From Desulforamulus reducens MI-1 (GTDB taxonomy: Bacteria; Bacillota; Desulfotomaculia; Desulfotomaculales; Desulfotomaculaceae): a stretch of 64,000 nucleotides of DNA. Under the pieces are notes generated by a model, which saw only the letters and a list, made by a program, of their open reading frames with translations, was not told where the DNA came from and searched no databases. The translations under genes and the position numbers were made by a program. The stretch spans positions 716,332 through 780,331 of the forward strand of contig NC_009253.1 of NCBI RefSeq assembly GCF_000016165.1, given 5' to 3'. This document shows positions 707 to 31,291 of this stretch, one piece after another (within the stretch, counting starts at the first letter, position 1; each line of letters starts with the position of its first letter).

Positions 707-772
707 TATATTAAAAACCATACTTGTTGTATAATAAGATGAATTTTAGTTACTTGGGGAGAGTGTTTAACA

Positions 773-14055: not shown

Positions 14056-14060
14056 AGAAT

Positions 14061-15716: not shown

Positions 15717-15718
15717 AC

Positions 15719-16630
15719 ATGATTTATACTTCACTGGCAGGTGAACTTCAGTCACTGGTAAAAGGCTCTATCCAGATTAATGAACCCATGAGAAAACATA
15801 CTACCTGGAAAATTGGTGGTAAGGCAGATCTCTTTTTGAACCCCAGTGATAAAGAAGATATTCGTCAGGCGGTGGAGTTTGCCCGAGAAAAAGCGATACC
15901 CATAACGGTCATTGGAAACGGGTCTAACCTACTGGTCAAAGATGGTGGTATTCGGGGTCTGGTTATTAAAGTTGGGCGTGGTATGGCAAAAATAACGATT
16001 GAAGGCACCAGCATAAAGGCAGGTGCCGGTGCCTTGCTTCCCGAGCTGGCAGTGTTTGCATGTAAGAACAGTCTTGGTGGTTTTGGATTTGCCGCTGGGA
16101 TTCCTGGTTCCTTAGGTGGAGCCATTGTAATGAATGCAGGGGCTATGAACGGGTGCGTATCGGATGTTCTGCAGTCCATAGTAGTGTTAAACGAAAGAAA
16201 CCAGTTTGAAGTTCTAACAAAGGACCACCTCAATTTTGCATATCGTACCAGTAATCTGCAAAGCAGGGGACTGATCTGTGTGGAAACTTGCTGGCAAGGA
16301 TATGCCAAGGATCAATGGCTCATTGAACAGGAAACCAAGGAGTATCTGGCTAAAAGAAAAGCAGCTCAGCCTCAGGGGTTTCCCAATGCGGGCAGTGTGT
16401 TTAAAAATCCTGAGGGTGATTTTGCAGGGAGGCTTATTGAAGGCTGCGGAGGAAAGGGACTAAGAGTTGGAGATGCTGAAGTATCGTCAAAACACGCCAA
16501 CTGGATATTGAACTTGGGCAGAGCTACTGCCCAAGATGTTCTTATCTTAATTGATCATCTTAAGCAAATGGTGCAAGAGCGTTTTGGTGTTTTGCTCCAA
16601 TTAGAAGTAAAAGTGTTGGGAGAAGACTAG
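15719..16630 (+). CDS. murB: UDP-N-acetylenolpyruvoylglucosamine reductase
   Basis: This 303-residue FAD-dependent enzyme reduces UDP-GlcNAc-enolpyruvate to UDP-MurNAc with NADPH. The FAD-binding region shows TTWKIGGKADLF near residues 28-39 and GNGSNLLVKDGGIRG near 62-76. GFAAGIPGSLGGAIVMNAGA near 121-140 and the substrate-binding AGSVFKNPEG near 223-232 follow. The length fits the short MurB class common in Gram-positives. Its ribosome-binding site overlaps the end of murC, so the two genes are translationally coupled. Confidence 0.96.
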   Translation: MIYTSLAGELQSLVKGSIQINEPMRKHTTWKIGGKADLFLNPSDKEDIRQAVEFAREKAIPITVIGNGSNLLVKDGGIRGLVIKVGRGMAKITIEGTSIKAGAGALLPELAVFACKNSLGGFGFAAGIPGSLGGAIVMNAGAMNGCVSDVLQSIVVLNERNQFEVLTKDHLNFAYRTSNLQSRGLICVETCWQGYAKDQWLIEQETKEYLAKRKAAQPQGFPNAGSVFKNPEGDFAGRLIEGCGGKGLRVGDAEVSSKHANWILNLGRATAQDVLILIDHLKQMVQERFGVLLQLEVKVLGED

Positions 16631-16644
16631 GCGAGGTGACAATA

Positions 16645-17898
16645 ATGGAAAAGTTTGTAATTGTAGGAGGGAACCGCCTAAAGGGGAGTATTAAAGCCAA
16701 TGGATCAAAAAATGCAACGTTACCAATTCTAGCAGCTACTTTATTAACCGGCGGTGTAAGTACCGTACATCAAGTACCCAGGCTAAGGGATGTTTTAGTC
16801 ATGCAGGAATTATTAACCTACCTGGGTGCAAGGGTAACCTTTGAGGGAAATACCATGACGGTGGATGGCTCCAATGTGCAGCCCCAGGAGATATCAGAGG
16901 ACCTAATGAGGAAGATGCGAGCATCGAATCTGGTTCTGGGTCCTCTGTTGAGCCGGTTTGGTCATGTTAAGATTTCGCACCCAGGAGGGTGCAATATTGG
17001 CTCCCGTCCGATGAACCTTCACTACAAGGGATTGAATGCCCTGGGCGCCACCATTAAGGAAAAATTTGGCTATATATTAGCGGATACTAGTCAGTTAACT
17101 GGAACAGTTATTCACTTTGATGTACCCAGTGTTGGTGCCACTGAAAATATGATGATGGCCGGGGTATTGGCGGAAGGAACCACAGTTCTTAGAAATGCAG
17201 CAAAGGAGCCTGAGATTGTAGATTTACAGAATTTCTTAAATGCTATGGGTGCTAAAATTGTCGGTGCCGGTACAGATGTTATTCGAATTGAAGGGGTGAA
17301 AGAATTAGATTCTGTCACTCATACCGTGATCCCAGATCGCATTGAAGCAGGAACTCATATGATAGCCGGAGCCATTACCCAAGGGGATGTTACGGTAACC
17401 AATGTAATACCAGAGCATTTGGATCCCGTTATCTATAAATTAATGGAAGCGGGTGTGCAGGTGGATGTGGGTGACGATTGGGTGCGTGTTCAGAGTACTG
17501 GCCAACTAAAAGCTGTGGATATTAAAACCATGCCTTATCCGGGTTTTCCGACGGATATGCAGTCTCAGATGATGGCATTATTAACGGTTGCCGAAGGAAC
17601 CAGTGTAATTACCGAGACGATATTTGAGAATCGCTTTAAACATGTGCCGGAATTCCGTAGAATGGGGGCAGACATCTATTTAGAGGGTCATACAGCGGTG
17701 GTAAAAGGGGTAAAACGCTTAACTGGAGCCTGTGTGGAGGCCACAGATCTCAGGGCGGGGGCAGCCTTAATTCTAGCAGCCCTGGCTGGGGAAGATGGCA
17801 CAGTATTAAGCAATATTGAACATATTGACCGGGGATATGAAAGAATAGAAATGAAATATAATTCCCTGGGGGCACGTATTATAAGAGTCAATAGTTAA
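16645..17898 (+). CDS. murA: UDP-N-acetylglucosamine 1-carboxyvinyltransferase
   Basis: MurA transfers enolpyruvate from PEP to UDP-GlcNAc, the committed step of peptidoglycan synthesis. ATG 16645 is preferred to GTG 16636 because GAGGTG (16633-16638) is then the ribosome-binding site; the product has 417 residues. The N-terminal GSKNATLPILAA and the loop PGGCNIGSRPMNLH are clear. The loop Cys (about residue 116) is the residue alkylated by fosfomycin in sensitive enzymes, so sensitivity is predicted at the target level. An intrinsic terminator overlaps its stop codon. Confidence 0.96.
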   Translation: MEKFVIVGGNRLKGSIKANGSKNATLPILAATLLTGGVSTVHQVPRLRDVLVMQELLTYLGARVTFEGNTMTVDGSNVQPQEISEDLMRKMRASNLVLGPLLSRFGHVKISHPGGCNIGSRPMNLHYKGLNALGATIKEKFGYILADTSQLTGTVIHFDVPSVGATENMMMAGVLAEGTTVLRNAAKEPEIVDLQNFLNAMGAKIVGAGTDVIRIEGVKELDSVTHTVIPDRIEAGTHMIAGAITQGDVTVTNVIPEHLDPVIYKLMEAGVQVDVGDDWVRVQSTGQLKAVDIKTMPYPGFPTDMQSQMMALLTVAEGTSVITETIFENRFKHVPEFRRMGADIYLEGHTAVVKGVKRLTGACVEATDLRAGAALILAALAGEDGTVLSNIEHIDRGYERIEMKYNSLGARIIRVNS

Positions 17899-17912
17899 TG
17901 ACTCTTTTTTTA
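17883..17912 (+). terminator. Intrinsic terminator overlapping the murA stop
   Basis: AAGAGTCA/TGACTCTT (17883-17890, 17899-17906) with an 8-nt loop and a run of T. The murA TAA lies in the loop. It ends the mur block just before a separate ftsQ promoter. Confidence 0.85.
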
Positions 17913-17921
17913 GTTTTGCCT

Positions 17922-17950
17922 TGGACAAGTATGATTATCTTCGTTATAAT
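17922..17950 (+). promoter_or_regulatory. Sigma-A-type promoter for ftsQ-DUF881-sbp
   Basis: TGGACA (17922-17927) and a perfect TATAAT (17945-17950) are 17 bases apart, about 40 bases before the ftsQ start and directly after the murA terminator. Confidence 0.75.
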
Positions 17951-17990
17951 TACTGTAAAACAAGTGAAATATTAAGCAAGGAGTGGGACT

Positions 17991-18746
17991 GTGTATCGAC
18001 CTCAAACAGGTACTCCTAGAAAAAAGAACCACTTGGTACAGAGTGTTTTTTTTATTTTACTGGTAGTGGTTGCAAGCTATATCTTACTTCAATCGCCATT
18101 TTTCCAAATTAAGACGGTGGTTGTAAATGGAAACCGACAGTTAAAGAAAGAGGACATTGTTCGTTACTCCGGTATTAATATCGGTCTCAATATTTTTAAA
18201 GTAAATTTATCGGAATGCGAAGAAAGATTGGGGCTTGTACCCTTTATAAAAAACGTTAAACTGAAACGTTCATTACCTAATAAAGTTATCATTGAAGTCA
18301 GTGAGCGTAATGCAGTGGCCTTGCTTCCGGTAGAAAATGGTTTTATTAAAGTAGATACAGAAGGGGTATATTTACAAAGGGGCCAAATTGCTGCTGCACT
18401 GCCAATCATCACAGGCCTAGACATTCAATTAAAGGGTCCGGGAAAACCCATTCAGTCGGAATATTTACCGATGGCGTTAAGGATTTTGGACCAGTTACCC
18501 AGATCGGTAATTATGAAACTCTCGGAGCTGAATGTAAGTAAAGCGGGGCTTATAACCCTCTATACCATTGATGGTGTGCAAGGAAGACTGGGTTCTGCTA
18601 AAGACCTTGAATACAAAGGAATTGTCTTTCAACAGGTATTAGCCACACTGCAGCAGTCCAATAATGAGATACAGTATGTTGATCTTTCTAACCCACGGGT
18701 ACCTGTGGTGAAATACTTTAAAGACCCGCAGGAGGGACAGAAATGA
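17991..18746 (+). CDS. ftsQ: Cell-division protein FtsQ/DivIB
   Basis: This 251-residue bitopic division protein has a short basic cytoplasmic tail and one transmembrane segment at about residues 17-37. A POTRA domain at about 41-112 carries the typical FQIKTVVVNGN and PNKVIIEVSER strands, followed by the FtsQ/DivIB beta domain. It forms the FtsQ-FtsL-DivIC complex that controls septal PBP and SEDS activity. GTG 17991 lies 7 bases after AAGGAG. Its last four bases overlap the start of the first DUF881 gene. Confidence 0.92.
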   Translation: MYRPQTGTPRKKNHLVQSVFFILLVVVASYILLQSPFFQIKTVVVNGNRQLKKEDIVRYSGINIGLNIFKVNLSECEERLGLVPFIKNVKLKRSLPNKVIIEVSERNAVALLPVENGFIKVDTEGVYLQRGQIAAALPIITGLDIQLKGPGKPIQSEYLPMALRILDQLPRSVIMKLSELNVSKAGLITLYTIDGVQGRLGSAKDLEYKGIVFQQVLATLQQSNNEIQYVDLSNPRVPVVKYFKDPQEGQK

Positions 18747-19444
18747 AAATAAAACAGTACCAATGGGGGCTTGTATTGGTGGGCATAGTAATGGGGTTAA
18801 TGCTTACCGTGCAATATCGCTCCTACAAGGAAATTAATGAAACTCCTCCCATTGCCAGGGTCCAAGCCCTTGCCAATGAGATTAAGCAGAAAAAAGAAGA
18901 ACGTAGCGAACTGCAAAAGAAAGTAAATGAGCTTAGAGAGAAACTAGATAAAAAGGCCACCGTACAGTCCGATAACACACGGACTGACTTGGAGACCTTT
19001 AGAATTTTGGCGGGTATAAAAGCGGTTAAAGGCCCAGGGGTGGAAGTCACATTAAATGATAGTGAGGTGTCCCTGGCTCCTGGTCAGGACCCGAATCTTT
19101 ATGTGTTGCATGATGAAGATGTATTAAAGGTTCTTAATGAACTAAAGGCTGCAGGGGCGGAGGCCATTGCCTTAAATGGTGTAAGATTAATATCCACCAG
19201 TGAGATACGGTGTATTGGCCCAACAATTCTTACCAATAAAAACAAAAGGTTGCCTGCTCCTTTTTCCATCACGGCCATAGGTAATCCAAAAACCTTAGAA
19301 AACTCGCTCTTCATGAAGGGCGGAGTGGTGGATCAACTTAAAATTTGGGGGATACAGGTTGATGTTCGCAAAAAGGATAACCTGCAAATCTCTGAATATA
19401 CAGGACCCACCACCTTTGAGTTTGCTAAGTCCGTACAGGAGTAG
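18743..19444 (+). CDS. DUF881 membrane-anchored protein (first of a tandem pair)
   Basis: This 233-residue protein has a single N-terminal membrane segment (about residues 8-24), a charged coiled coil (about 42-75, Lys/Glu-rich) and a DUF881 domain. The domain is recognised by IKAVKGPGVEVTLNDS and LNELKAAGAEAIALNGVRL. DUF881 genes are common between ftsQ and ftsA/ftsZ in Clostridia and Actinobacteria and are thought to be division-associated, but the biochemical role is unknown. It overlaps ftsQ by 4 bases (ATGA), so coupled translation is likely. It is a paralogue of the next gene. Confidence 0.85.
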   Translation: MKIKQYQWGLVLVGIVMGLMLTVQYRSYKEINETPPIARVQALANEIKQKKEERSELQKKVNELREKLDKKATVQSDNTRTDLETFRILAGIKAVKGPGVEVTLNDSEVSLAPGQDPNLYVLHDEDVLKVLNELKAAGAEAIALNGVRLISTSEIRCIGPTILTNKNKRLPAPFSITAIGNPKTLENSLFMKGGVVDQLKIWGIQVDVRKKDNLQISEYTGPTTFEFAKSVQE

Positions 19445-19455
19445 GTGGCAATTGT

Positions 19456-20148
19456 ATGAATAAAACTTTGTATATTTCCATTACGTTAGTTTCTGTAGTA
19501 CTAGGATTAATGGTTGCATTTCAATTTCGAACTGCTGGCAGGGTTGACTCAGGGGTTCCCATTGATCGGGTTCAACTATTGACTACGGAACTAAAACAGC
19601 TGGACAAAGAGTATGCAACTCTTGTAAATGAAAGCAAAGATTTGGAGCAGAAGTTAGCCCAGGCAGAAAAGGGGCGCCCCCAGGCATCTCAAGCGGTTCA
19701 AGAGGAACTCGAAAAAATTCGTCAACTTGCTGGTCTTACCAAACTGCAAGGTCCCGGTGTCGAGGTTAACCTTTCCCCCCTAACAAAGGGGGAAAATCTT
19801 TTTACTGTGCGGGATGAGGATCTATTGAGGGTCATTAACGAACTGCGAGCGGCAGGAGCGGAAGCACTGGCCATTAATGGTCAGCGTATTGTAGCTACCT
19901 CTGAGATAAGGTTAGCTGGGTCCTTCATTGATGTAAACTTAACTCGTATATCAGCACCCTATTCGGTATTGGCCATTGGCTCACCCGGGCAATTGGAGAG
20001 TGCTCTGCTAATAAAAGGCGGATTGGTGGATACCATGCGAGATTGGGGAGTTTCAGTGACAGTAAATAAGAAAGAAACAGTTACTGTTCCGGCATACACC
20101 CACCGTATTAATCTGGAATATGCCAAACCACTGAAGGAGGAAGGCTAA
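19456..20148 (+). CDS. DUF881 membrane-anchored protein (second copy)
   Basis: This 230-residue paralogue of the preceding product has the same architecture: an N-terminal membrane anchor (about residues 5-22), a coiled coil (about 38-75) and a DUF881 domain. The domain shows KLQGPGVEVNLSPL, INELRAAGAEALAINGQRI and a C-terminal AIGSPGQLESALLIKGG. The two proteins are clearly related but well diverged, which suggests an old duplication with separate functions, perhaps a heteromer (inference). The sbp gene follows after 2 bases. Confidence 0.85.
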   Translation: MNKTLYISITLVSVVLGLMVAFQFRTAGRVDSGVPIDRVQLLTTELKQLDKEYATLVNESKDLEQKLAQAEKGRPQASQAVQEELEKIRQLAGLTKLQGPGVEVNLSPLTKGENLFTVRDEDLLRVINELRAAGAEALAINGQRIVATSEIRLAGSFIDVNLTRISAPYSVLAIGSPGQLESALLIKGGLVDTMRDWGVSVTVNKKETVTVPAYTHRINLEYAKPLKEEG

Positions 20149-20150
20149 CC

Positions 20151-20492
20151 ATGTGGACAGGTATCATATTGGCCGCGGCTGGATTAACTGTGGGTATTTT
20201 AGTTGGTTTGAATGTACCATTGGTATTACCCCAGATTTATGCCCAATATCTGGGCTTAGCTGTGTTGGCGGCTTTGGACTCGGTTTTTGGAGGTGTCCGT
20301 GCTGCTTTAGAAAATCACTATGATAACCATATCTTTATTACAGGTTTTTTCAGCAATATTCTTTTAGCCGCCGGACTGGCCTATATTGGAACCAAATTAG
20401 GCGTTCCCTTAAGTACAGCCGCTGTAGTGGCCTTTGGTGTGCGTTTATTTCAAAATCTTGCCATCATACGACGGTATTTATTGAAAAAATAA
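20151..20492 (+). CDS. sbp: Small basic protein Sbp (DUF1290)
   Basis: This 113-residue integral membrane protein has about three to four hydrophobic segments covering most of the chain and a basic C-terminus (RRYLLKK). The GLAVLAALDSVFGGVRA segment and the position just upstream of ftsA identify the DUF1290/small basic protein family, which is conserved beside ftsA-ftsZ in many Firmicutes; its function is unknown. It is cotranscribed with the DUF881 pair. The 88 bases before ftsA show no clear terminator. Confidence 0.85.
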   Translation: MWTGIILAAAGLTVGILVGLNVPLVLPQIYAQYLGLAVLAALDSVFGGVRAALENHYDNHIFITGFFSNILLAAGLAYIGTKLGVPLSTAAVVAFGVRLFQNLAIIRRYLLKK

Positions 20493-20580
20493 GTATAATT
20501 TATAAAATAAGCAAAAGGGAATTTTTATTCTATGTTGAATTTACAATTTAAGTAAAAGTTTCACTTAGGAGGTGCCTGGC

Positions 20581-21558
20581 TTGGCCAGGAGACATTTCAT
20601 CGGTGGACTTGATATAGGAACGACTAAAATTGTATCGGTAATTGCAGAAATCAGCCCCAGTGGTTATGCAATGGTTAAAGGGTTAGGGGAATGTCCAACC
20701 CTGGGCATAAGAAAGGGTTTGGTTACCGATATCGTTTCGTTCAGTAAAGTGATTGATCAGGCTGTTAGGCTGTCTGAAAAGATGGCTAATGTAAAAGTTC
20801 GTTCGTTTTTTGTGACTGCTTCTGCCTTTAGACAGCTAGCTGACCAGTATCATATGATTGATGAAAAATTGGCAGAGAGTATGCAAAGAGTTGGATTAGA
20901 ACTTGTGAAAATGGTTCCCTCTGTTCTGGCGTCTGCCGAAGCAGTGCTAACAGATACCGATAAAAATATTGGAACTGTTTTGGTAGATATGGGCGGGACC
21001 ATCACGGAAGTGGCTGTTTTTGACCAGGGCTTGCCGATATATATTTCTTCTTTGCCTGTTGGCTGTGAACATATAACCAGTGATTTAGCGGTATGTTTGC
21101 GTACTTCCATTAGTGAAGGAGAACGCATTAAGCGGTTGCTGGGCATGCAAACCCTGGAGCAAAAAAAAGATCTGGAAGTTAGCAGTGTTGGAGGCCATGA
21201 ACAAAGAAAGGTGCCCGTAAATGCTGCTATGGATATAATACATTCACGGGTTCAAGAGATATTTGAACTGATTCACAAGGAATTGACTCAAAAATATCGA
21301 TTGGAGTCATTACCCGGGGGATTGGTTCTGACGGGTGGAGGGTCTCTCTTAAAGGATATTGTGAATTATGCAAATTCACAGATGAATTTTTTTAAGGTGG
21401 AGTTGGGTTCCCCGTCTAAGGTGGGTGTGTCCAAAGAAGAGTGGCTTAACCCCTCCTATGCTTCATCCCTTGGACTGGTGATGTATGGCGCCAAAAATAA
21501 TTCCCGCCGCTTAGAGCGCCTTTCAGGATGGCGTGATGTCTTAAATAAGTTTATCTAG
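20581..21558 (+). CDS. ftsA: FtsA-like cell-division ATPase, apparently lacking subdomain 1C
   Basis: This actin-family protein normally tethers FtsZ to the membrane. TTG 20581 is chosen because AGGAGG (20567-20572) lies 8 bases upstream; GTG 20572 overlaps that site. The product is 325 residues, against about 420-440 for FtsA of E. coli and B. subtilis. The phosphate-1 loop GLDIGTTKI (near residue 9), phosphate-2 VDMGGTITEVAVF (near 139-151), and adenosine loop GGLVLTGGGSLL are present. About 80 residues corresponding to subdomain 1C are missing between VRSFFVTASAF and the LVKMVPSVLASAEAVL segment. The C-terminal LERLSGWRDVLNKFI could be the amphipathic membrane helix. ftsZ lies 44 bases downstream. 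Confidence 0.85.
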   Translation: MARRHFIGGLDIGTTKIVSVIAEISPSGYAMVKGLGECPTLGIRKGLVTDIVSFSKVIDQAVRLSEKMANVKVRSFFVTASAFRQLADQYHMIDEKLAESMQRVGLELVKMVPSVLASAEAVLTDTDKNIGTVLVDMGGTITEVAVFDQGLPIYISSLPVGCEHITSDLAVCLRTSISEGERIKRLLGMQTLEQKKDLEVSSVGGHEQRKVPVNAAMDIIHSRVQEIFELIHKELTQKYRLESLPGGLVLTGGGSLLKDIVNYANSQMNFFKVELGSPSKVGVSKEEWLNPSYASSLGLVMYGAKNNSRRLERLSGWRDVLNKFI

Positions 21559-21602
21559 GATAGCGGTTTGATCGTGATAAATACAGAGGAGGATAAATTT
21601 AT

Positions 21603-22655
21603 ATGCTCGACTTTGAAATGGAAATGGATCATTTTGCGAATATCAAAGTAATTGGTGTAGGGGGCGGCGGGAATAACGCAGTCAACCGCATGATCAGTGC
21701 TGGGCTAAAGGGCGTTGAATTTGTTGCAGTGAACACCGATGCACAGTCACTTTTTTTATCCCAGAGCAATAGTAAAATCCAAATTGGTAATAAATTAACT
21801 AAGGGACTGGGTGCTGGAGCAAACCCTGAAATCGGCTGTAAGGCAGCGGAAGAAAGTCGTGAAGAAATTATGCAGGCCCTTAAAGGGGCTGATATGGTTT
21901 TCGTAACTGCCGGTATGGGGGGGGGGACAGGTACTGGTGCTGCTCCTGTGGTGGCCGAGATTGCCAAGGAATTAGGTGCCCTTACCGTTGGGGTTGTAAC
22001 AAAACCCTTTACCTTTGAAGGAAGAAAGAGACTTTCTCAGGCTGAGTCTGGAATTGAAAATTTAAAAAGCAAAGTTGATACTTTAATTACCATTCCCAAT
22101 GATCGTCTGCTACAAGTTATTGATAAGAATACATCCATCATTGAGGCATTTCGTATTGCTGACGATGTATTACGTCAAGGTGTCCAAGGTATCTCCGACT
22201 TAATTGCAGTACCCGGTTTAATCAATCTGGACTTTGCAGATGTAAAGACCATTATGAAAGATGCCGGTTCTGCCCTGATGGGAATTGGTTCCTCTTCTGG
22301 CGAAAACAGAGCTTCCGAAGCAGCTAGATTTGCCATCTCCAGTCCATTGTTGGAAACCTCTATAGAAGGAGCTAGGGGTGTTCTTCTGAATATTACAGGT
22401 GGTTCATCCTTGGGATTGTTTGAAGTGAATGAAGCAGCAGAAATTATTGCTCAGGCTGCTGATCCCGAAGCTAATATTATATTTGGTGCCGTTATTGACG
22501 AAAGAATGAATGAAGAAGTAAGGGTAACTGTTATTGCTACTGGATTCGATCACAAAGTACCAGTCAAAACGGAAACTAAAAAGCAGGAAATGGATATCAA
22601 GCCCTTTGCTAGTCACGATGATTTGGATATTCCGGCTTTTTTACGCCGTCGCTAA
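21603..22655 (+). CDS. ftsZ: Cell-division GTPase FtsZ
   Basis: This 350-residue tubulin homologue forms the Z-ring. The GTP-binding regions are [14 protein letters not shown] near residues 17-30 and the tubulin signature [14 protein letters not shown] near 103-116. The T7/catalytic-loop segment is NLDFADVK. The C-terminal linker is short, and the protein ends with the conserved peptide DIPAFLRRR that binds FtsA and SepF; both partners are encoded in this window. A strong intrinsic terminator follows. Confidence 0.98.
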
Positions 22656-22662
22656 GAACATT

Positions 22663-22690
22663 AACCTCCTGTCCTTGCAGGAGGTTTTTT
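22663..22690 (+). terminator. Intrinsic terminator after ftsZ
   Basis: AACCTCCTG/CAGGAGGTT (22663-22671, 22678-22686), 6-nt loop, followed by a T-tract. It marks the end of the dcw cluster. Confidence 0.9.
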
Positions 22691-22760
22691 ATTATGTAGA
22701 ATACACTTCTGATTTGAGGACACACTAAATGTAAGAAAAGCCAAAGGAAGGTGCAATGAA

Positions 22761-22910
22761 ATGGAGGATATTCATTTAAACAAAGAAAATCTAACAAGAA
22801 AAGAAAGTTTGGATAAGATTAGGGGCCAGCGACAGTTTGAAGAACCTAACAAAGGTCCAGCTCATAAAGACTCCAATCGAAATGATATAAATGACCCCCT
22901 AAGTAAGTAA
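22761..22910 (+). CDS. Small hydrophilic protein of 49 residues, unrecognised
   Basis: This 49-codon frame begins at ATG 22761 and ends TAA 22910. AAGGAAGGTG (22744-22753) lies 7 bases before the start. The product (MEDIHLNKENL..., ending NDPLSK) is highly charged, with no hydrophobic segment or cysteine, and would be mostly disordered. It lies between the ftsZ terminator and the spoIIG promoter, in an otherwise empty 575-base interval. I do not recognise a family. The ribosome-binding site and isolated position argue that it is translated, but a chance frame cannot be excluded. Confidence 0.5.
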   Translation: MEDIHLNKENLTRKESLDKIRGQRQFEEPNKGPAHKDSNRNDINDPLSK

Positions 22911-22992
22911 GAAAATAGAATGGGTGCTAAACAAGGAAAAGTCCCTTAGTGTAGAATAATAGAGGAAAAAATCTTTATTTTATTTCCAGAAA

Positions 22993-23026
22993 TTGACAAG
23001 TTTCCCTGGTCCTGGCGGTGTATAAT
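22993..23026 (+). promoter_or_regulatory. spoIIG-type promoter with a 22-bp spacer (Spo0A-dependent sigma-A promoter)
   Basis: A perfect TTGACA (22993-22998) and a perfect TATAAT (23021-23026) are separated by 22 bases instead of 17. The B. subtilis spoIIG promoter is known for exactly this abnormal 22-bp spacing, which makes it dependent on Spo0A-phosphate. A 0A-box-like TGTAGAA (6 of 7 to TGTCGAA) lies at 22950-22956, about 80 bases before the predicted start, and the -35 region read in reverse gives TTGTCAA. About 200 nt of leader would precede the spoIIGA start. Confidence 0.75.
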
Positions 23027-23043
23027 ACTGCCAGGGTTTTTTT
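23011..23043 (+). terminator. Intrinsic terminator enclosing the spoIIG -10 box
   Basis: CCTGGCGGT/ACTGCCAGG (23011-23019, 23027-23035; one G-U) has loop GTATAAT and is followed by seven T (23037-23043). The loop contains the promoter -10 hexamer. Read-through RNA from upstream would terminate here, while RNA started at the promoter begins beyond most of the stem. Confidence 0.8.
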
Positions 23044-23230
23044 ATATACAAGGACAACAGAGGTTGCCTGCGATCTTCAGTTTATAGCTTTTAGGTATGC
23101 TCAAAGAGTGCATTAACTTTTGGTAAGGGAAGTTAAATTTTTCTTTTTTTTTCGATTTAATGGAATACTTTATTTTTCCAAACCATAAGATGGTATTGGC
23201 CATTTGAATTTTTATATGAGGTAATTTTAA

Positions 23231-24136
23231 ATGAAACAAGTGGTCTATTTGGACGAGGTCATATTTGTCAATCTGCTTATGAACCTTACTGTACTGTGGT
23301 TAACGTCCCGGTTTACCGGAAATAAGCTGTCCTTTGTAAGGGGTTTGGCCGCAGCGTCAGTGGGGTGTATTTATGCTCTGGTAGTATTGATACCTGGGAC
23401 GGTGGTCATAAAACATATCCTTATCAAGTTAACCATTACAATGTTGATGGTCTTGATTGCCTTTAGATACAAAGGCTGGAAGAAGTTTGCTGGGGATTTT
23501 TTATGCTTATTTTTAACAGGTTTTTTTGTAGGAGGTTTGGCCCTAGGACTTCACTATTTACTGGTGTCCAATTTTGCTAATTTATCAAATACCCAGCTTT
23601 CTGCAAACTACCATAGATGGTTTGTTCTTATGGTAACAATAATACTATCCTTCTGTGTAGGAAATTGGGGTGCTTCCATATGGCATAAAAGGATGGGACT
23701 AATCGATAATCGGGTTCCTCTCACCGTTAACTTATGGGGAAATCGAATTTCTGTTCAGGCATTGGTGGATACCGGAAATCATTTGGTGGATCCTTTAAGC
23801 CACTATCCGGTCATTATTATGGAGTATGAGGCGATCAAGCCTTTACTTCCTAATGAAATATCCCGGTTATACAGTGAGGGGATCAGCCAAGATGGTTCTG
23901 ACATGTTGACATTGCTCTCGGCTAGCCCCTATGCCCAACGATTAAGATTAATTCCCTTTCATTCCCTCGGGAATAATCATGGTATGCTTTTAGGTATTCG
24001 ACCGGATGACATTGAGGTTTGTTATAAAAATAAAATCCAAAGGATACAAAATGTTGTGGTGGGAATCTATGAAAAAAAGTTAAGTCCTGGAACAACTTAC
24101 AGGGCTCTTTTACATCCACAATTATTAGCCTTTTAA
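23231..24136 (+). CDS. spoIIGA: Sigma-E processing peptidase SpoIIGA
   Basis: This 301-residue membrane aspartic protease cleaves the pro-peptide of sigma-E in the mother cell after signalling from SpoIIR. The N-terminal half has about five transmembrane segments (residues 5-155), beginning VYLDEVIFVNLLMN. The C-terminal half carries the protease motif ALVDTGNHLVDPL, with the catalytic Asp near residue 180. It lies directly upstream of its substrate gene sigE. Ribosome-binding site GAGGTAA precedes ATG 23231. The 190-base leader after the promoter holds no gene. Confidence 0.95.
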   Translation: MKQVVYLDEVIFVNLLMNLTVLWLTSRFTGNKLSFVRGLAAASVGCIYALVVLIPGTVVIKHILIKLTITMLMVLIAFRYKGWKKFAGDFLCLFLTGFFVGGLALGLHYLLVSNFANLSNTQLSANYHRWFVLMVTIILSFCVGNWGASIWHKRMGLIDNRVPLTVNLWGNRISVQALVDTGNHLVDPLSHYPVIIMEYEAIKPLLPNEISRLYSEGISQDGSDMLTLLSASPYAQRLRLIPFHSLGNNHGMLLGIRPDDIEVCYKNKIQRIQNVVVGIYEKKLSPGTTYRALLHPQLLAF

Positions 24137-24171
24137 TCTAGACAGGGATCGGGGTTCAGGGGGGGAGATGC

Positions 24172-24897
24172 TTGAAAAACGTTTGGCATTTTAAAATTCT
24201 GATTAGAATCTATTTAGCCCGAGTTATACATTGGCTTGGATACCAACAGGAAGTTTATTACGTAGGAAGTAGTGAGGCTTTGCCCCCACCTCTTTCCATT
24301 GATGAAGAGATTGACTTAATTGAGCGATTGGGAGACGGTGACCTAAAAGTTAAGAATGTACTAATAGAAAGGAATCTCCGTCTCGTAGTATACATCGCCC
24401 GAAAGTTTGAGAACACCGGCATAGGGATAGAGGATCTGGTGTCTATAGGGACTATTGGTCTAATTAAAGCTGTTAATACCTTTGATCCACACAAGAAAAT
24501 TAAACTTGCCACCTATGCGTCCCGATGTATCGAAAATGAAATTTTAATGCACCTAAGGAGAAATAACAAAACCCGTTCTGAAGTCTCCTTTGATGAACCT
24601 TTAAACATAGACTGGGATGGCAACGAGTTGTTGCTTTCAGATGTGCTGGGGACTGAAAATGATATTATTTACAAAAACATAGAGGAAGAAGTTGATAAAA
24701 AACTTTTGCATCAGGCATTATTAAAACTTTCCGGACGAGAAAGGCGAATTATGGAACTTCGATTTGGACTCAATAACGGTTCAGAAAAGACTCAAAAAGA
24801 GGTTGCAGACATGCTGGGGATATCCCAATCCTATATTTCCCGGTTAGAAAAACGTATTATTAAGCGCTTGAAAAAAGAAATTCATCGCATGGAGTAA
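24172..24897 (+). CDS. sigE: RNA polymerase sporulation sigma factor sigma-E (pro-form)
   Basis: This 241-residue sigma-70 factor is the mother-cell-specific regulator after asymmetric division. The first about 30 residues ([17 protein letters not shown]...) are the hydrophobic pro-sequence removed by Spo[18 protein letters not shown] then leads into region 2 ([20 protein letters not shown], residues about 63-82, and [17 protein letters not shown]). Region 4 contains the helix-turn-helix [19 protein letters not shown] near 205-223. TTG 24172 follows GGGGGAGATG. The gene is 35 bases after spoIIGA and evidently cotranscribed. Confidence 0.96.
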
Positions 24898-24923
24898 AAT
24901 TTTAAAGGCAGAAAAAGAAGGAA

Positions 24924-24966
24924 AAAGCTCTTAAAACACACATTTAGTTAGTTTTTTGAGCTTTTT
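24924..24966 (+). terminator. Intrinsic terminator after sigE
   Basis: AAAGCTC/GAGCTTT (24924-24930, 24958-24964) extended by AAAAC/GTTTT pairs, followed by T residues. Confidence 0.7.
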
Positions 24967-24983
24967 CATTGTGTTTTAGCCAT

Positions 24984-25012
24984 GTATATAAGAATTTTGT
25001 CAAGGTAATAAT
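24984..25012 (+). promoter_or_regulatory. Sigma-F-type promoter for sigG
   Basis: GTATA (24984-24988), a 15-base spacer, then GGTAATAAT (25004-25012). This matches the established forespore sigma-F pattern (GYWTA and GGNNANANT). In B. subtilis sigG is transcribed by sigma-F, so the location about 75 bases before sigG fits. Confidence 0.65.
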
Positions 25013-25087
25013 GAACTTGTAAGGTCAACATTAAACGTTTTACCACTGGCGCCACTGGTATTCGAAACGACGTTGGGAGGCCGATAA

Positions 25088-25861
25088 ATGCTTATCAACA
25101 AAGTCGAGATCTGCGGGGTAAATACTTCTAAACTACCTGTGCTAAAAAACACTCAGATGAGAACTTTGTTTGAAGCAATGCAACAAGGGGATAAAGATGC
25201 CAGAAGCCAGTTAATTAATGGCAACCTCAGGTTGGTACTTAGTGTCATACAACGTTTTACCAATCGTGGTGAATATGTGGATGACTTATTTCAAGTGGGT
25301 TGCATCGGGCTTATGAAGGCAATTGACAACTTTGATCTGGGTCAAAACGTAAAGTTTTCTACATATGCAGTACCTATGATCATAGGGGAAATTCGGCGGT
25401 ACCTAAGGGATAATAATCCCATCCGGGTTAGCAGATCCCTGAGAGATGTTGCTTATAAGGCTTTGCAGGTAAGGGATACCCTTGTTAATAAATATTCCAG
25501 GGAGCCATCAATTAATGAGATTGCTGGCGAATTAAAAATGCCCCGGGAAGATATTGTCTTTGCCTTAGATGCTATTCAAGAACCCATTTCGTTATTTGAG
25601 CCCATCTATCATGATGGAGGGGACCCAATCTTTGTGTTGGATCAAATCAGTGATGAGAAGAATCTGGATTTGAGTTGGTTAGAGGAGATATCCATTCGGG
25701 ATGCCTTAAGAAGGTTAAGTGATCGGGAAAAGCATATTTTAACCTTACGATTTTTTGAAGGGAAAACCCAAATGGAGGTTGCTGATGAAATTGGCATATC
25801 CCAGGCTCAAGTATCCCGTTTGGAAAAGGCTGCCTTAAATCATATGAAAAAGTTTGTCTAA
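25088..25861 (+). CDS. sigG: RNA polymerase sporulation sigma factor sigma-G
   Basis: This 257-residue forespore-specific sigma factor begins with the typical VEICGVNTSKLPVL motif that distinguishes SigG from SigF. Region 2 contains INGNLRLVLSVIQRF and DDLFQVGCIGLMKAIDNFD (about residues 43-75). Region 3 contains VSRSLRDVAYKALQ, and region 4 KTQMEVADEIGISQAQVSRLEK near 225-246. Ribosome-binding site GGGAGG precedes ATG 25088. The order spoIIGA-sigE-sigG matches B. subtilis, but here it is joined directly to the dcw cluster. Confidence 0.97.
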   Translation: MLINKVEICGVNTSKLPVLKNTQMRTLFEAMQQGDKDARSQLINGNLRLVLSVIQRFTNRGEYVDDLFQVGCIGLMKAIDNFDLGQNVKFSTYAVPMIIGEIRRYLRDNNPIRVSRSLRDVAYKALQVRDTLVNKYSREPSINEIAGELKMPREDIVFALDAIQEPISLFEPIYHDGGDPIFVLDQISDEKNLDLSWLEEISIRDALRRLSDREKHILTLRFFEGKTQMEVADEIGISQAQVSRLEKAALNHMKKFV

Positions 25862-25877
25862 ACGTAATTCTGTCCGA

Positions 25878-25903
25878 AATAGGGTCCTTTGGACCCTATT
25901 TTG
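25878..25903 (+). terminator. Intrinsic terminator after sigG
   Basis: AATAGGGTCC/GGACCCTATT (25878-25887, 25891-25900) with a 3-nt loop, followed by TTGTTG. Confidence 0.8.
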
Positions 25904-25960
25904 TTGTGCAGAAGTCAGTTACCCCTGCATATAAATTAACAATACAAGGAGGTGGCAGGG

Positions 25961-26230
25961 GTGATTAAGATTTCTGACCTGCGGGTAAGAGAAGTTGTTA
26001 ACATTGTGGACGGGAGAAGACTGGGATTAATTAAAGATATTGATATCGATTTGGAAGCGGGTCGTATTACTGCCATCATATTACCGGGACAGGGCCGCTT
26101 TTTAGGACTTTTTGGCAGGGAAGATGAGTTAATTGTCCCCTGGGACAAAATAAAAAAAATTGGTCTTGACATAATTCTGGTGGAGATACCGCCCTTTCAT
26201 ACCAATCGGGAGGATATTTATCGCTACTAG
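25961..26230 (+). CDS. ylmC: YlmC/YmxH-family PRC-barrel sporulation protein
   Basis: This 89-residue PRC-barrel protein of the YlmC/YmxH family is conserved downstream of sigG in spore formers. GTG 25961 is chosen because AGGAGG (25947-25952) lies 8 bases upstream; an earlier in-frame GTG at 25952 overlaps that site. The signature KISDLRVREVVNIVDGRRLG at the start and PWDKIKKIGLDIILVE at the end are typical. The function is uncertain; family members are expressed during sporulation. Confidence 0.85.
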   Translation: MIKISDLRVREVVNIVDGRRLGLIKDIDIDLEAGRITAIILPGQGRFLGLFGREDELIVPWDKIKKIGLDIILVEIPPFHTNREDIYRY

Positions 26231-26301
26231 GCTTTATAAAAGAAAAAACTACGAAATTATCTGAAGAACAAGACTTGTCTATTAAAAAACATTGCATTTT
26301 G

Positions 26302-26330
26302 TTGAAAATTTTAATATAATTTTTTATAAT
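26302..26330 (+). promoter_or_regulatory. Sigma-A promoter of the lactate-utilisation operon
   Basis: TTGAAA (26302-26307) and TATAAT (26325-26330) are 17 bases apart, followed by a leader of about 185 bases before the first LUD gene. The leader carries hairpins (AGGTT/AACCT at 26347-26360; AGAAATGTT/AACATTTCT at 26364-26385 followed by T-rich sequence) and palindromes. Confidence 0.7.
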
Positions 26331-26363
26331 CAAATAACTAATTATAAGGTTCCGAAACCTAAT

Positions 26364-26396
26364 AGAAATGTTTTTTAACATTTCTTTAATTTTTGT
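26364..26396 (+). terminator. Terminator-like hairpin in the lactate-operon leader
   Basis: AGAAATGTT/AACATTTCT (26364-26372, 26377-26385), 4-nt loop, followed by TTAATTTTT. It is AT-rich. It lies after the promoter, so it could attenuate the operon. Confidence 0.5.
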
Positions 26397-26402
26397 ACTT
26401 AG

Positions 26403-26445
26403 TGGTTAACCAATAGAGTGGTTTATTTGGTTAGTGGTCAGACCA
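26403..26445 (+). promoter_or_regulatory. Paired palindromes resembling GntR/FadR-type (LldR/LutR) operators
   Basis: TGGTCAGACCA (26435-26445) is a perfect palindrome fitting the TNGT-N3-ACNA pattern of FadR-subfamily GntR regulators, the class that commonly controls lactate genes. TGGTTAACCA (26403-26412) is a second, 1-bp-shorter palindrome. An additional inverted repeat, ATGCCT-GTAT-AGGCAT, lies at 26448-26463. All are downstream of the predicted promoter, a roadblock-type position. No GntR gene lies in the window. Confidence 0.55.
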
Positions 26446-26521
26446 TCATGCCTGTATAGGCATAGGTGTTATAAAATGAAAAAGTGTAGTCATGATAAAA
26501 CATATAAAAGAGGTGTATGGC

Positions 26522-27085
26522 ATGAGCGTACAAGCGAAGACTTCTTATGATGCCTTGTACAAAGAATTTAAAGGAAAAGCAGAGGCATTATCGGCAGAAG
26601 TTTACAGGGTTCCTAACATGGAAGAAGCTCATCAACTAATTACTAAGATCATTGGTGAGCTAAATGTTAACAAGGTGGTATATGCCCCATCTGAACTGGT
26701 AGATGCAGTGGATGTCAAAAAGATTGCTACTGCAACTGGGGTTGTAATGACCTCTGAAAATTTACGGCAAAATGCTGCAGATGCAGGCTTGGGAATTTCC
26801 CAATTGGATTATGCCGTTGCTGAGATTGGCGCTCTGGCAGGTAATGCCACCAGCATCGAGAGCAGAATGGTTTCCATCTTAACCCCTATTCATATGGCTG
26901 TGGTACGCACATCAAATCTTTTACCAAACCTTATGGAAACCATAGCCACATATAATAACAAATTAGGGGAGCTTCCTCGTTATTTAACCTTTGTCAGTGG
27001 TCCAAGCCGTACTTCCGATATTGAACGTGTTTTGACCATTGGGGTTCACGGACCTGGCAGACTGATTATTGTATTTATCGACTAA
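26522..27085 (+). CDS. LUD-domain lactate utilisation protein (LutC-like)
   Basis: This 187-residue LUD-domain protein starts at ATG 26522, which GAGGTG (26510-26515) supports over the in-frame ATG 26492. LUD proteins (LutC/LutB/YkgG family) form part of the non-flavin, Fe-S lactate dehydrogenase LutABC, oxidising L-lactate to pyruvate. Visible features are the VGISQLDYAVAEIGAL segment, the SRMVSILTPIHMAVV strand and the end SGPSRTSDIERVLTIGVHGP, typical of the family. It is shorter than B. subtilis LutC (about 240 residues). The next gene, 13 bases downstream, supplies the Fe-S parts. Confidence 0.85.
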   Translation: MSVQAKTSYDALYKEFKGKAEALSAEVYRVPNMEEAHQLITKIIGELNVNKVVYAPSELVDAVDVKKIATATGVVMTSENLRQNAADAGLGISQLDYAVAEIGALAGNATSIESRMVSILTPIHMAVVRTSNLLPNLMETIATYNNKLGELPRYLTFVSGPSRTSDIERVLTIGVHGPGRLIIVFID

Positions 27086-27098
27086 GGGGGGGCTAAAA

Positions 27099-29243
27099 TT
27101 GGCTACAGGTAATTTAAAAAAGGATATTAATTCAGCACTTAATAATGATAACCTTACTGGTGCACTGGGCCGCTTTGGTGAAGCTTATTTACCTGCCCGG
27201 GAAAAGGCTTATGAAGGAAAAGATTTTGAAGCAATCCGCGAAAAGGTAAGTCAATGTAAACGGAATGCTGCTGATAATTTGGAAAAATTAGCTGAGCAAT
27301 TTGCTACACAGGCCGTAAAAAATGGCGCCAAAGTGTTCCGTGCCAAGACAGGCGAAGAGGCTAAGGAATATATTGCTAAAATTGCAAGGGATCATAATGT
27401 AAAGACCATTATTAAGTCCAAATCCATGGCTTCCGAAGAAATTCATCTAAATGATTATCTTATGAAGCATGCAGGAATCGAAGAAGTTGCAGAAACTGAC
27501 TTGGGTGAATGGATTATTCAACTGTGCGGACAGCGTCCTTCACACATGGTAATGCCGGCCATTCACATGACCCGGGGCGAAGTGGCAGAGATCTTTTCTA
27601 AAGAAACCAATCAAAATTTAGAACCGGATATTGCCAAGTTAGTAAAAGTGGCAAGGGAAAACCTGCGCAACAAATTTTTAAAAGCTGAAATGGGTATTTC
27701 CGGTGCCAATATTGCCATTGCAGAATCTGGTACCTTGGTTATGTGTACCAACGAAGGTAATGGTCGCCTAACAACTACCGTCCCTCCTGTGCATGTGGTA
27801 CTGGTTGGCTTGGAGAAACTGGTGGAAAAATTTGAAGATGTGGGTCCTATTTTAGAGGCCCTGCCCCGTAGTGCTACGGGACAAAAGCTTACCAGTTATG
27901 TAACTATGATGACTGGTCCTACTCCTGCCATTGATCTGGACGGTAATATTGTTGAGCAGAAGGAAATGCATATTGTTCTGATGGACAATGGCCGTACCGA
28001 AATGCGAAACGATCCGATGTTTAAACAGGCTCTACAGTGTATTCGCTGTGCTTCCTGTTTGAATGTTTGCCCTGTATTCCAGCAGGTGGGTGGCCACGTT
28101 TATGGTCACGTTTATACTGGCGGTATAGGGACCATTCTAACCGCTTTCTTAAACAGCTTTGAAAAGGCCGGCGAATTGCAAAACCTCTGTCTGCGTTGTG
28201 AGCGCTGCAAAACTTACTGCCCCGGTAAAATTGATTTACCCGGTCTAATTGCGGAATTACGCCGCCGTACTGTGAAAAAAGAAGGATTACCCATGAGTCA
28301 AAAGCTCATTTTGGAAAAGGTTTTAACAAACCGTAAATTGTTCCACTCTTTAATTAGAACTGCTTCTGTGGCTCAGAAGCCCTTTGTCAAGGGTAATGTT
28401 ATACGCCACTTGCCGCTGTTCTTCTCTGGATTGACCGAAGGACGCAGCTTACCTGCTGTGGCTTCTACGCCCCTTAGGGATAAGGTAGGACGTGCGGTAC
28501 CCACCGGTAAGCCTAAGGCCAAGGTTGGTTATTATGCTGGCTGTCTGGGTGACTTTGTCTATCCCGAACAGGGTGAAGCAGCTTACAAGGTTTTGAACAA
28601 AATGGGAATGGAAGTTATTTTCCCTATGGAGCAAACCTGTTGTGGTATTCCCGCCACTCAAATGGGTGCTCCCGAAGTGGCTGTAACCCTGGCTAAACAA
28701 AACATTGAAGCCTTTGAAAAAGAAGGCTTGGACTACATTGTTTCCTTGTGTCCCACCTGTGTTGAGGTACTGAAACATCACTATGTGGATCAACTAAAGG
28801 ATGATCCAGCATGGAAAGCAAGGGCTGAGAAGTTTGCGGCCAAGGTTATTGATTTCCCAACTTTTGTAACTAAATATGGTCAAGACCTTAAATTTAAAAA
28901 CTTGGGCACTAAAGTGACCTATCACGATTCCTGTCACATGAAGCGGGTTCTCAATGTATGGAAAGAGCCCCGGGAACTACTAAACAAGGCAGGGGTTGAA
29001 CTGGTGGAAATGAAGGGCTGCGATGACTGCTGTGGTTTTGGAGGTTCTTATTCTGTTAAGATGCCAGAAATTTCAAAGGCTATCTTGGAGAAGAAGATTA
29101 ACAATACCACTGCTACCAACGCTGCTGTACTGGCCTTAGACTGTCCCGGCTGCAAGATGCAAATTGCAGGTGGTATTGATGCTAAAGGCAAAAACATAGC
29201 TGTTAAGCATACTGTAGAGTTGCTGGCTGACGCCTTAAAATAA
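27099..29243 (+). CDS. Fused LutB-LutA: LUD domain, two [4Fe-4S] motifs and two CCG domains
   Basis: This 714-residue protein starts at TTG 27099 after AAGGGGGGG. Residues about 60-300 form a LutB-type LUD domain (IAESGTLVMCTNEGNGRLTT, then PSHMVMPAIHMTRGEVAEIF nearby). Residues about 313-385 are a ferredoxin-like region with CIRCASCLNVCP and CLRCERCKTYCP. Residues about 470-710 contain two cysteine-rich CCG domains (YAGCLGDF...TCCGIPA and YHDSCHMKR...DCCGFGGSYS) that in B. subtilis are the separate protein LutA. It thus combines LutA and LutB in one chain and should oxidise L-lactate together with the preceding LUD protein. The electron acceptor is unknown. Confidence 0.9.
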   Translation: MATGNLKKDINSALNNDNLTGALGRFGEAYLPAREKAYEGKDFEAIREKVSQCKRNAADNLEKLAEQFATQAVKNGAKVFRAKTGEEAKEYIAKIARDHNVKTIIKSKSMASEEIHLNDYLMKHAGIEEVAETDLGEWIIQLCGQRPSHMVMPAIHMTRGEVAEIFSKETNQNLEPDIAKLVKVARENLRNKFLKAEMGISGANIAIAESGTLVMCTNEGNGRLTTTVPPVHVVLVGLEKLVEKFEDVGPILEALPRSATGQKLTSYVTMMTGPTPAIDLDGNIVEQKEMHIVLMDNGRTEMRNDPMFKQALQCIRCASCLNVCPVFQQVGGHVYGHVYTGGIGTILTAFLNSFEKAGELQNLCLRCERCKTYCPGKIDLPGLIAELRRRTVKKEGLPMSQKLILEKVLTNRKLFHSLIRTASVAQKPFVKGNVIRHLPLFFSGLTEGRSLPAVASTPLRDKVGRAVPTGKPKAKVGYYAGCLGDFVYPEQGEAAYKVLNKMGMEVIFPMEQTCCGIPATQMGAPEVAVTLAKQNIEAFEKEGLDYIVSLCPTCVEVLKHHYVDQLKDDPAWKARAEKFAAKVIDFPTFVTKYGQDLKFKNLGTKVTYHDSCHMKRVLNVWKEPRELLNKAGVELVEMKGCDDCCGFGGSYSVKMPEISKAILEKKINNTTATNAAVLALDCPGCKMQIAGGIDAKGKNIAVKHTVELLADALK

Positions 29244-29252
29244 GTATTATAA

Positions 29253-29284
29253 CAAAAGGGTTGGGGATTATCCCCAACCCTTTG
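29253..29284. terminator. Bidirectional terminator between the lactate operon and splB operon
   Basis: AAAGGGTTGGGGA/TCCCCAACCCTTT (29255-29267, 29271-29283) has a 3-nt loop. On the minus strand it is followed by a T-rich run; on the plus strand the tail is weaker. It separates convergent transcription units. Confidence 0.8.
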
Positions 29285-29289
29285 TCAGT

Positions 29290-29427
29290 TTATTGCTGAT
29301 CCTTTTTAGCTTTATATTTAAACCGCAGCTTCTGTTCAGTGCAGGGTTTATGAGCATCCTGACAGTCACCGCAGGTACAGGTAGTACCTACACAGGTAAG
29401 GCATTGGGAGTCTTCGGGACATTTCAT
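29290..29427 (-). CDS. Small Cys-rich protein (45 residues) downstream of splB
   Basis: This 45-residue frame on the minus strand starts at ATG 29427, with AAGGAGGT about 9 bases upstream. It has seven cysteines in the first 29 residues in the pattern CPEDSQCLTCVGTTCTCGDC...C, then a basic tail ending KAKKDQQ. The Cys pairs could bind zinc or an Fe-S cluster. It begins 36 bases after splB on the same strand, ahead of the shared terminator, so cotranscription with the spore photoproduct lyase is likely. I do not recognise a named family; a role with SPL (electron supply, cluster delivery, or DNA binding) is only inferred from position. Confidence 0.75.
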   Translation of the reverse strand: MKCPEDSQCLTCVGTTCTCGDCQDAHKPCTEQKLRFKYKAKKDQQ

Positions 29428-29463
29428 AAACAAATACCTCCTTGCAATAAGCAAACTTAAATC

Positions 29464-30522: not shown

Positions 30523-30708
30523 TAGCATTCTTCCTTTAATCAATTTGTATCAGTTTGTCTCAAAGTTTTTCTTGCTATGCTCTAATCAAAATAAAGTAGG
30601 ACTCTGGATCCAATTTAAATATTTTCCTGGAAATACAGAAAGCGGAGAAAATGAAAGTTATGGACAATCTTTTGGGCCTGAGGAGAAAATATAACAGCTA
30701 AGCGGGAA

Positions 30709-30737
30709 TTGACTCTCAAGATATGGTATTTTATAAT
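30709..30737 (+). promoter_or_regulatory. Sigma-A promoter of nrdR-nrdD
   Basis: TTGACT (30709-30714) and TATAAT (30732-30737) are 17 bases apart. CAAGATAT within the spacer (30717-30724) forms an exact inverted repeat with ATATCTTG (30793-30800), next to the nrdR ribosome-binding site. The leader also has CCACAAC/GTTGTGG (30746-30752, 30773-30779). No site fits the published NrdR-box consensus well. Confidence 0.75.
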
Positions 30738-30812
30738 AAGTCTGCCCACAACATCTTGGTTATTTTGGGGCGGTTGTGGTGGCAAAGACCCAATATCTTG
30801 GGGGGTGACCAA

Positions 30813-31289: not shown

Positions 31290-31291
31290 AG

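Follow-up and report, generated by a model that had tools for sequence, protein, structure and literature searches.

The spoIIGA-sigE operon of Desulforamulus reducens MI-1 most likely has a Spo0A-type sigma-A promoter with an intrinsic terminator around its -10 element. Such a segment would act as a one-way boundary, stopping RNA from upstream and starting sporulation RNA. Comparison of related sequences separates two layers in this arrangement. The promoter with its 21- or 22-nt spacer is the old layer, and the terminator around the -10 is derived, a trait of the order that includes Desulforamulus, Pelotomaculum, Desulforudis and others. The result is a compact merger of two usually distinct regulatory signals. 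It has been retained across an order and combines two kinds of evidence, fixed promoter letters and a covarying stem. By-products of the analysis are a phylum-wide spoIIG signature, the 21/22-nt spacer, and a likely sigma-E promoter for sigE.

The window (the whole stretch of 64,000 nucleotides analysed) belongs to a genome of 3,608,104 bases. On the 3' side of the element lie spoIIGA, sigE and sigG (NCBIfam), and ftsZ is on its 5' side (Pfam). The initial annotation placed TTGACA and TATAAT 22 bases apart directly 5' of spoIIGA-sigE, and the window sequence confirms this arrangement (Table 1). An automated promoter scan leaves it unlisted because the scan is restricted to spacers of 16-18 nt. 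TATAAT had further been described as the loop of a 9-bp stem followed by seven T. The hairpin and the T run are present; the nine-pair stem includes one G.U and encloses the loop GTATAAT, and a G separates the 3' arm from the seven T. In the computed fold, however, the stem extends into the TATAAT hexamer and leaves a 3-nt loop, and the -10 is therefore more exactly the hairpin apex than its loop. The RNA fold has an energy of -18.0 kcal/mol, which is not equalled by any of 200 dinucleotide shuffles (z -4.46). This hairpin is the first-listed of 27 terminator-like sites in positions 14000-33000, where shuffles expect 20.5. Rfam gave no match to positions 22400-23600.

Table 1. Features of the spoIIG region, in positions of the window.
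Feature	Position	Strand	Basis or remark
Separate terminator-like hairpin after ftsZ	22663..22686	+	terminator scan; -15.3 kcal/mol
49-codon ORF between ftsZ and the promoter	22761..22910	+	ORF list; unmatched in Pfam and NCBIfam
Putative distal Spo0A box TGTAGAA	22950..22956	+	one mismatch to TGTCGAA; 43 nt 5' of the -35
Conserved CA, putative partner half of a tandem Spo0A box	22987..22988	+	10 bp upstream of the -35 CA
-35 element TTGACA; a putative reverse Spo0A box of degenerate sequence overlaps it	22993..22998	+	sequence, conservation
22-nt spacer, with the hairpin's 5' arm in its 3' part	22999..23020	+	sequence, comparison
5' arm of the terminator stem, CCTGGCGGT	23011..23019	+	sequence, fold, covariation
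-10 element TATAAT at the hairpin apex	23021..23026	+	sequence, fold
3' arm of the terminator stem, ACTGCCAGG; contains the predicted spoIIG start, ~23033	23027..23035	+	start predicted from the place of the -10
T run; predicted release region for read-through RNA	23037..23043	+	termination inferred
Sigma-E-type promoter-like element: ATA 23165-23167, 16 nt, CATAAGATGGTA 23184-23195	23165..23195	+	sequence, comparison
spoIIGA	23231..24136	+	PF03419, E 1.1e-89; TIGR02854 over cut-off
sigE	24172..24897	+	TIGR02835, 420.5 bits, over cut-off

The spoIIG promoter of Bacillus subtilis has a 22-bp spacer. SpoIIGA is present in all nine genomes of the genus and in 106 of the 113 genomes of the order, with no match in the other seven; no relatives were obtained by a protein-only scan of genome contigs. 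A free search of the order upstreams for spacers of 15-26 nt, with TATAAT intact and no more than one -35 mismatch, found 40 pairs at 21 nt, 16 at 22, three at 20 and three at 19, and none at 15-18 nt or beyond 22 nt. A rule-based choice placed a promoter in 102 of the 106 upstreams (74 at 21 nt, 25 at 22, two at 20 and one at 24). The final placement comprises 104 promoters, 78 at 21 nt and 26 at 22 nt, and includes five hand choices (G042, G098, G059, G012 and G013) and one re-pick (G087). G012 and G013 have poor -10 boxes with two mismatches (TAAACT and TAGACT) and were chosen with their hairpins in view. The two genomes without a placed promoter are G014, where the rule gave none, and G021, where the contig ends; the element of G021 is located at the end of another contig and stands outside the count of 104.

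The phylum pool holds 252 genomes with SpoIIGA, 10 of them from the window's order. Outside the order we examined 88 genomes, 28 with loci supplied by the search and 60 picked for family spread, with upstream lengths of mostly 500 nt as against 1100-1500 in the order. The rule placed a promoter in 73 of these (65 at 21 nt, six at 22, one at 16 and one at 23) and none in the remaining 15, which were left out of the hairpin counts. A spacer of 21 or 22 nt is thus found in 104 of 106 upstreams in the order and in 71 of 88 elsewhere, which makes the long spacer a phylum-wide mark of spoIIG. Its conservation, which the initial annotation had singled out for checking in a clostridial lineage, holds, and it is no clostridial peculiarity.

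For the hairpin test, the -10 was folded with 18 nt of sequence before it and 20 nt after it, and a hairpin was accepted with at least six enclosing pairs, four G-C and an energy of -8 kcal/mol or lower. In the order, 84 of 104 promoters pass, 82 of them with a T-rich tail, compared with 14.5% and 8.1% for shuffled flanks; one re-picked site raises the number with hairpin and T tail to 83. Outside the order, seven of 73 pass and two have a T tail, compared with 9.6% and 2.1% for shuffles. A first, stricter fold test demanded that hexamer positions 2-5 be unpaired. It passed 40 of 102 promoters in the order (37 with a T tail; shuffles 13.1% and 6.5%) and seven of 73 outside it (two with a T tail; shuffles 9.7% and 1.9%). 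It was judged too strict and replaced because stems extend into the hexamer, as in the window. Acceptance rests on mismatched stems in 13 of the 83 hairpins, where the unbroken stem is shorter than six pairs. Of the 17 families in which a promoter was placed, 14 have at least one hairpin and three have none (f3, f10 and f13, each represented by one genome). In family f16 the longest T run is 2-5 (13 genomes), compared with 3-9 elsewhere (70 genomes), and termination may be weak there because the runs are shorter. Outside the order, genome G129 (locus L175) has a GC-rich stem and a T-rich tail around its spoIIGA -10, possibly an independent case, or chance at 2%.

Among the 25 named loci, 14 were compared, and ten have both promoter and hairpin: three Desulforamulus, three Pelotomaculum, Desulfotomaculum sp. 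GB_MAG20, Ca. Desulfopertinax cowenii, Desulforudis sp. Kmv41 and UBA911. D. putei, D. aeronauticus and D. aquiferis are among the named relatives in the genus. Three metagenome-assembled genomes (L288, L293 and L300) have the promoter without the hairpin, and in Orenia metallireducens the rule found no promoter. Another terminator on the 5' side of the -35, either after ftsZ or within 300 nt, occurs in 43 of 73 genomes outside the order and in 14 of 104 inside it. The terminator therefore seems to have been moved into the promoter in this order. The promoter is kept without an accepted hairpin in 21 of the 104 order genomes, 16 of which have no other terminator by the scan. Within the order, other terminators are found in five of the 21 genomes without a hairpin and nine of the 83 with one, a weak test of replacement.

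The stem is conserved as a structure while its letters change. The 83 stems have 61 different 5' arms and 65 arm pairs, for example CCCTGGC/GCCAGGG, CCCCGGC/GCCGGGG, CCTCGGC/GCCGAGG, GTCTGGT/ACCAGAC and CCATGGC/GCCATGG. Covariation was measured in an alignment of 78 distinct rows, which were chosen for having a hairpin and whose kinship inflates the counts. Paired cells make up 81.0%, compared with 75.0% after shuffling, and cells changed on both sides number 80, compared with 32.5, a value that none of 500 shuffles reached. When the 3' side is slid by one to three columns, pairing falls to 25-51%. One of the five measures is not striking: eight pairs have a change on both sides, compared with 5.9 in shuffles, and 33 of 500 shuffles reach this number. 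The covariation and the recurrence of the hairpin in 83 of 104 genomes uphold the stem conservation that the initial annotation had put up for checking. G.U cells outnumber A.C cells by 59 to 17 (nine of ten pairs), and the window sequence folds at -18.0 kcal/mol on the + strand compared with -11.7 on the - strand. The excess of G.U over A.C argues that the + strand RNA is what stays paired, and a DNA operator would not show it.

This evidence bears on the reading of the inverted repeat as a DNA operator or cruciform with no role as an RNA terminator. The repeat is a palindrome centred on the -10, as would suit such a site. The variety of the 5' arms, the G.U bias and the T-rich stretch after the 3' arm do not, and this reading, which we hold to be extremely improbable, was rejected. 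It is also very unlikely that the element is a promoter and nothing more, with GC-rich flanks kept around the -10 for the discriminator or for melting and the hairpin as their by-product. The promoter is indeed commoner than the hairpin, both in the order and outside it. Under that explanation, however, the paired changes in both arms and the T-rich tail remain without a cause. The same is true of the missing alternative terminators in the genomes where ftsZ lies closest to the promoter, described below, and the explanation was rejected on these three grounds.

In 24 genomes of the order, 27-43 nt separate ftsZ from the -35 (these are all 15 of f4, three of f2, three of f8, and one each of f3, f11 and f12). 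In 23 of these the hairpin is present and no other terminator was found; the 24th, G017, lacks the hairpin and carries a separate terminator instead. The situation differs in the genome of the window. Its ftsZ ends at 22655 and is followed by its own terminator-like hairpin, which ends 306 nt before the spoIIG -35, and then by a small ORF. For this reason the spoIIG hairpin is not the ftsZ boundary in this genome. The initial annotation had proposed insulation from ftsZ and dcw transcription in the shortest possible space; this agrees with the 23 tight-gap relatives and fails in the annotated genome itself. More broadly, its promoter-in-terminator design is conserved at the order level, and it overlooked the ftsZ terminator and the 49-codon ORF. 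This ORF (...KGPAHKDSNRNDINDP...) is conserved; a similar ORF, which has no NCBIfam match, occupies 938-1087 of locus L006 from a member of the genus, and others are visible in relatives. Locus L006 also encodes a DUF2007 protein (PF09413, 1097-1321) between the small ORF and spoIIGA, and no DUF2007 gene was seen between ftsZ and spoIIGA in the window. In locus L062 of f16, selD (247-1077, minus strand of the locus) precedes spoIIGA instead of ftsZ.

We infer termination, the start site, Spo0A control and the biological benefit of the element from sequence, and the following mechanism is proposed on that footing. RNA arriving from upstream would carry both arms, fold while the T run is copied and be released at about 23040-23044. 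The spoIIG RNA would start at ~23033 within the 3' arm and pass freely, as its start inside this arm leaves the 5' arm out and it cannot fold the hairpin. The segment would then work as a one-way boundary whose benefit may be to keep sigE RNA out of growing cells. In the genome of the window, the RNA halted by the hairpin would come from the 49-codon ORF or have leaked past the ftsZ terminator. Protection from occlusion is not given by this layout because a terminating polymerase would sit on the promoter.

This last point leads to another explanation, in which the overlap was selected for an effect of upstream transcription on the promoter. The polymerase that terminates there would cover the -10 and the start. 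It would either block spoIIG for as long as the upstream genes are active or stay on the DNA and be re-used once Spo0A~P is bound. Release is predicted about 10 nt past the predicted start, where the enzyme would cover the -10, and bacterial RNA polymerase is described as able to stay on DNA after termination and re-initiate (PMC6978322, in the text available). Hairpins are more frequent among genomes with ftsZ homology in the fetched upstream (62 of 71 genomes compared with 21 of 33 without it; Fisher p 0.008), also when f16 is left out (62 of 68 compared with eight of 12; p 0.038), although these genomes are not independent and the association ignores their relatedness. The mean T run is longer beside ftsZ (5.28 compared with 4.15). 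Against this explanation, re-initiation in the same direction is reported in the available text to be rare, at less than 2% of retained molecules (PMC6978322), and ftsZ RNA probably ends earlier in the genome of the window. We regard occlusion or hand-off as rather unlikely to have shaped the overlap. A fuller switch is also unlikely and is put forward tentatively. In it, division-gene transcription would strip or occlude the Spo0A-RNA polymerase complex and end on the promoter, and sigE could be activated only after ftsZ-side transcription had ceased or a retained polymerase had been passed on; the downstream sigma-E promoter would then lock the operon on. The arrangement offers a natural test set for interference between termination and initiation on shared bases, and it may connect the transcription of cell-division genes with the commitment to sporulate.

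The consensus of the Spo0A box is TGTCGAA, and tandem 0A boxes stand 10 bp apart. A CA at -6/-5 relative to the -35 is conserved in the 104 order promoters (C 0.88, A 0.91) and in 71 phylum promoters outside the order (C 0.89, A 0.79). The rule for choosing promoters favoured ACA in the -35 and was blind to this CA. The CA within the -35 follows ten bases further 3', one helical turn away, a spacing that fits tandem 0A boxes. The proximal box in the window is degenerate, and control of the promoter by Spo0A is putative. A distal TGTCGAA with at most one mismatch is found at -43 in six genomes of f1, all of the window's genus and the window included, and is exact in G001. It is found at -33 in 12 genomes (f4 and f18), at -42 in five (f15 and f4) and at -32 in three. 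In the order upstreams scanned at this threshold, a distal box is not evident beyond parts of f1, f4, f15 and f18. An inverted repeat of the type TGGAA-N5-TTCCA was seen by eye directly 5' of the -35 in loci L002 and L004-L006 of the genus, and in a weaker form in the window; it is possibly the site of a further regulator.

The element can be compared with known systems. The spoIIG promoter of B. subtilis is described as dependent on sigma-A and activated by Spo0A~P, with Spo0A boxes upstream (PMC12090719, available text). The present element resembles it in the gene driven, the class of the -35 and -10 and the long spacer, and would share the upstream Spo0A boxes, which are putative here. It differs from the B. 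subtilis promoter in the terminator hairpin that encloses the -10 and in the sigma-E-type element downstream. In C. difficile, a sigma-A promoter of spoIIGA (GTGACA, TATAAT) was mapped by RNA-seq; its boxes likewise lie upstream of spoIIGA, and the accessible part of the source describes no embedded terminator (PMC3789822). A parallel in logic is the predicted hairpin at the sigG ribosome site of B. subtilis. According to the available text, it arises solely when transcription from the spoIIG promoter reads through, and it blocks translation (PMC5942855). In both cases the 5' arm lies upstream of the local start, a predicted one here, and folding would be confined to read-through RNA; unlike the sigG hairpin, the present one would end transcription before spoIIGA. 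Other Bacillota (43 of 73) have a terminator that precedes the spoIIG promoter and stands apart from it; it would likewise stop upstream RNA before spoIIGA. Among the matches listed, titles and abstract openings in the open literature held no spoIIG promoter inside a terminator and no conserved terminator-embedded bacterial promoter.

A second promoter-like element lies between the hairpin and spoIIGA (ATA-N16-CATA in the window, 66 to 36 nt before the start codon). The pattern ATA-N15/17-CATATNNTGG, with at most one mismatch, is found in 58 of 104 order segments and in 15 of 67 outside the order, with 0.4 expected from shuffles in each case. Mismatches in the -10 are more numerous in the window's copy. 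A loose pattern, ATA-N15/17-[CA]ATA, is present in all nine genus loci 5' of spoIIIAA, a gene listed under sigma-E in the available text of PMC3416734; 175 of 800 shuffles also hold it. For spoIVA the pattern is present in six of eight genus loci, or seven of eight after the offset of L261 was corrected, compared with 22% of shuffles; L263 was left out of this comparison. The spoIVA of the window's own genome (L255) lacks the loose pattern, and the -10 letters of the spoIIIAA and spoIVA elements differ in part. Since 22% of shuffled upstreams meet the loose pattern, the weight lies on the constant place and letters of the element. A pattern for the element between the hairpin and spoIIGA has 11 matches genome-wide compared with five in a reversed control, and by eye only spoIIGA was recognised as a sporulation gene among the next genes of the 11. 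By sequence and comparison, the element is probably a sigma-E promoter, and if so, its place before spoIIGA-sigE would suggest a positive loop of sigE autoregulation. For spoIIG of B. subtilis and C. difficile, the available texts name only sigma-A (PMC12090719, PMC3789822).

A promoter box at the apex of a terminator could also arise by chance. Over 464 kb of the window's genome, on both strands, 297 terminator-like hairpins were found, and one of them, at spoIIG, has an exact TATAAT at its loop. Other arrangements of the same letters average 0.95 at these loops; the lone TATAAT loop therefore matches chance and is no proof by itself. This chance level is one of two points in favour of a terminator whose TATAAT is coincidental, the other being that upstream RNA from the 49-codon ORF has to be ended somewhere. 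Relatives nevertheless repeat the -35, the spacing and the -10, also outside the order in sequences whose -10 is not enclosed by a hairpin, and the mapped C. difficile promoter described above (PMC3789822, available text) has corresponding boxes. A pure terminator was rejected on the recurrence of the promoter pattern in relatives, and its probability is close to negligible. The case against chance, as a comparative one, is conservation, spacing and covariation in relatives.

A covariance model built from the 83 hairpins matches 91 of the 113 order genomes, 83 of these matches being its own training sequences. In the window's genome it has one match, at the spoIIG element. Together with the single TATAAT loop, this indicates that the design is no habit of that genome. 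Five further matches lie at spoIIGA despite a failed fold test (G080, G085, G086, G088 and G109). The match of G021 is at a contig end, apart from its broken spoIIGA contig, and G044 and G069 match elsewhere. Among 299 phylum genomes 38 match, 10 of them from the window's order, and the best of the others reaches 7e-7. Of 18 matching places inspected, 12 are without TATAAT; the matches with TATAAT in G112, G095, G069 and G192 have, at a distance of 21 or 22 nt, no -35 within two mismatches. G252, from another order, carries a second spoIIGA with an element of the present order's type (contig 5, locus L319). This copy has TTTACA, a 21-nt spacer and TATAAT in a hairpin, 67 nt 5' of the reading frame, and would stem from contamination or transfer.
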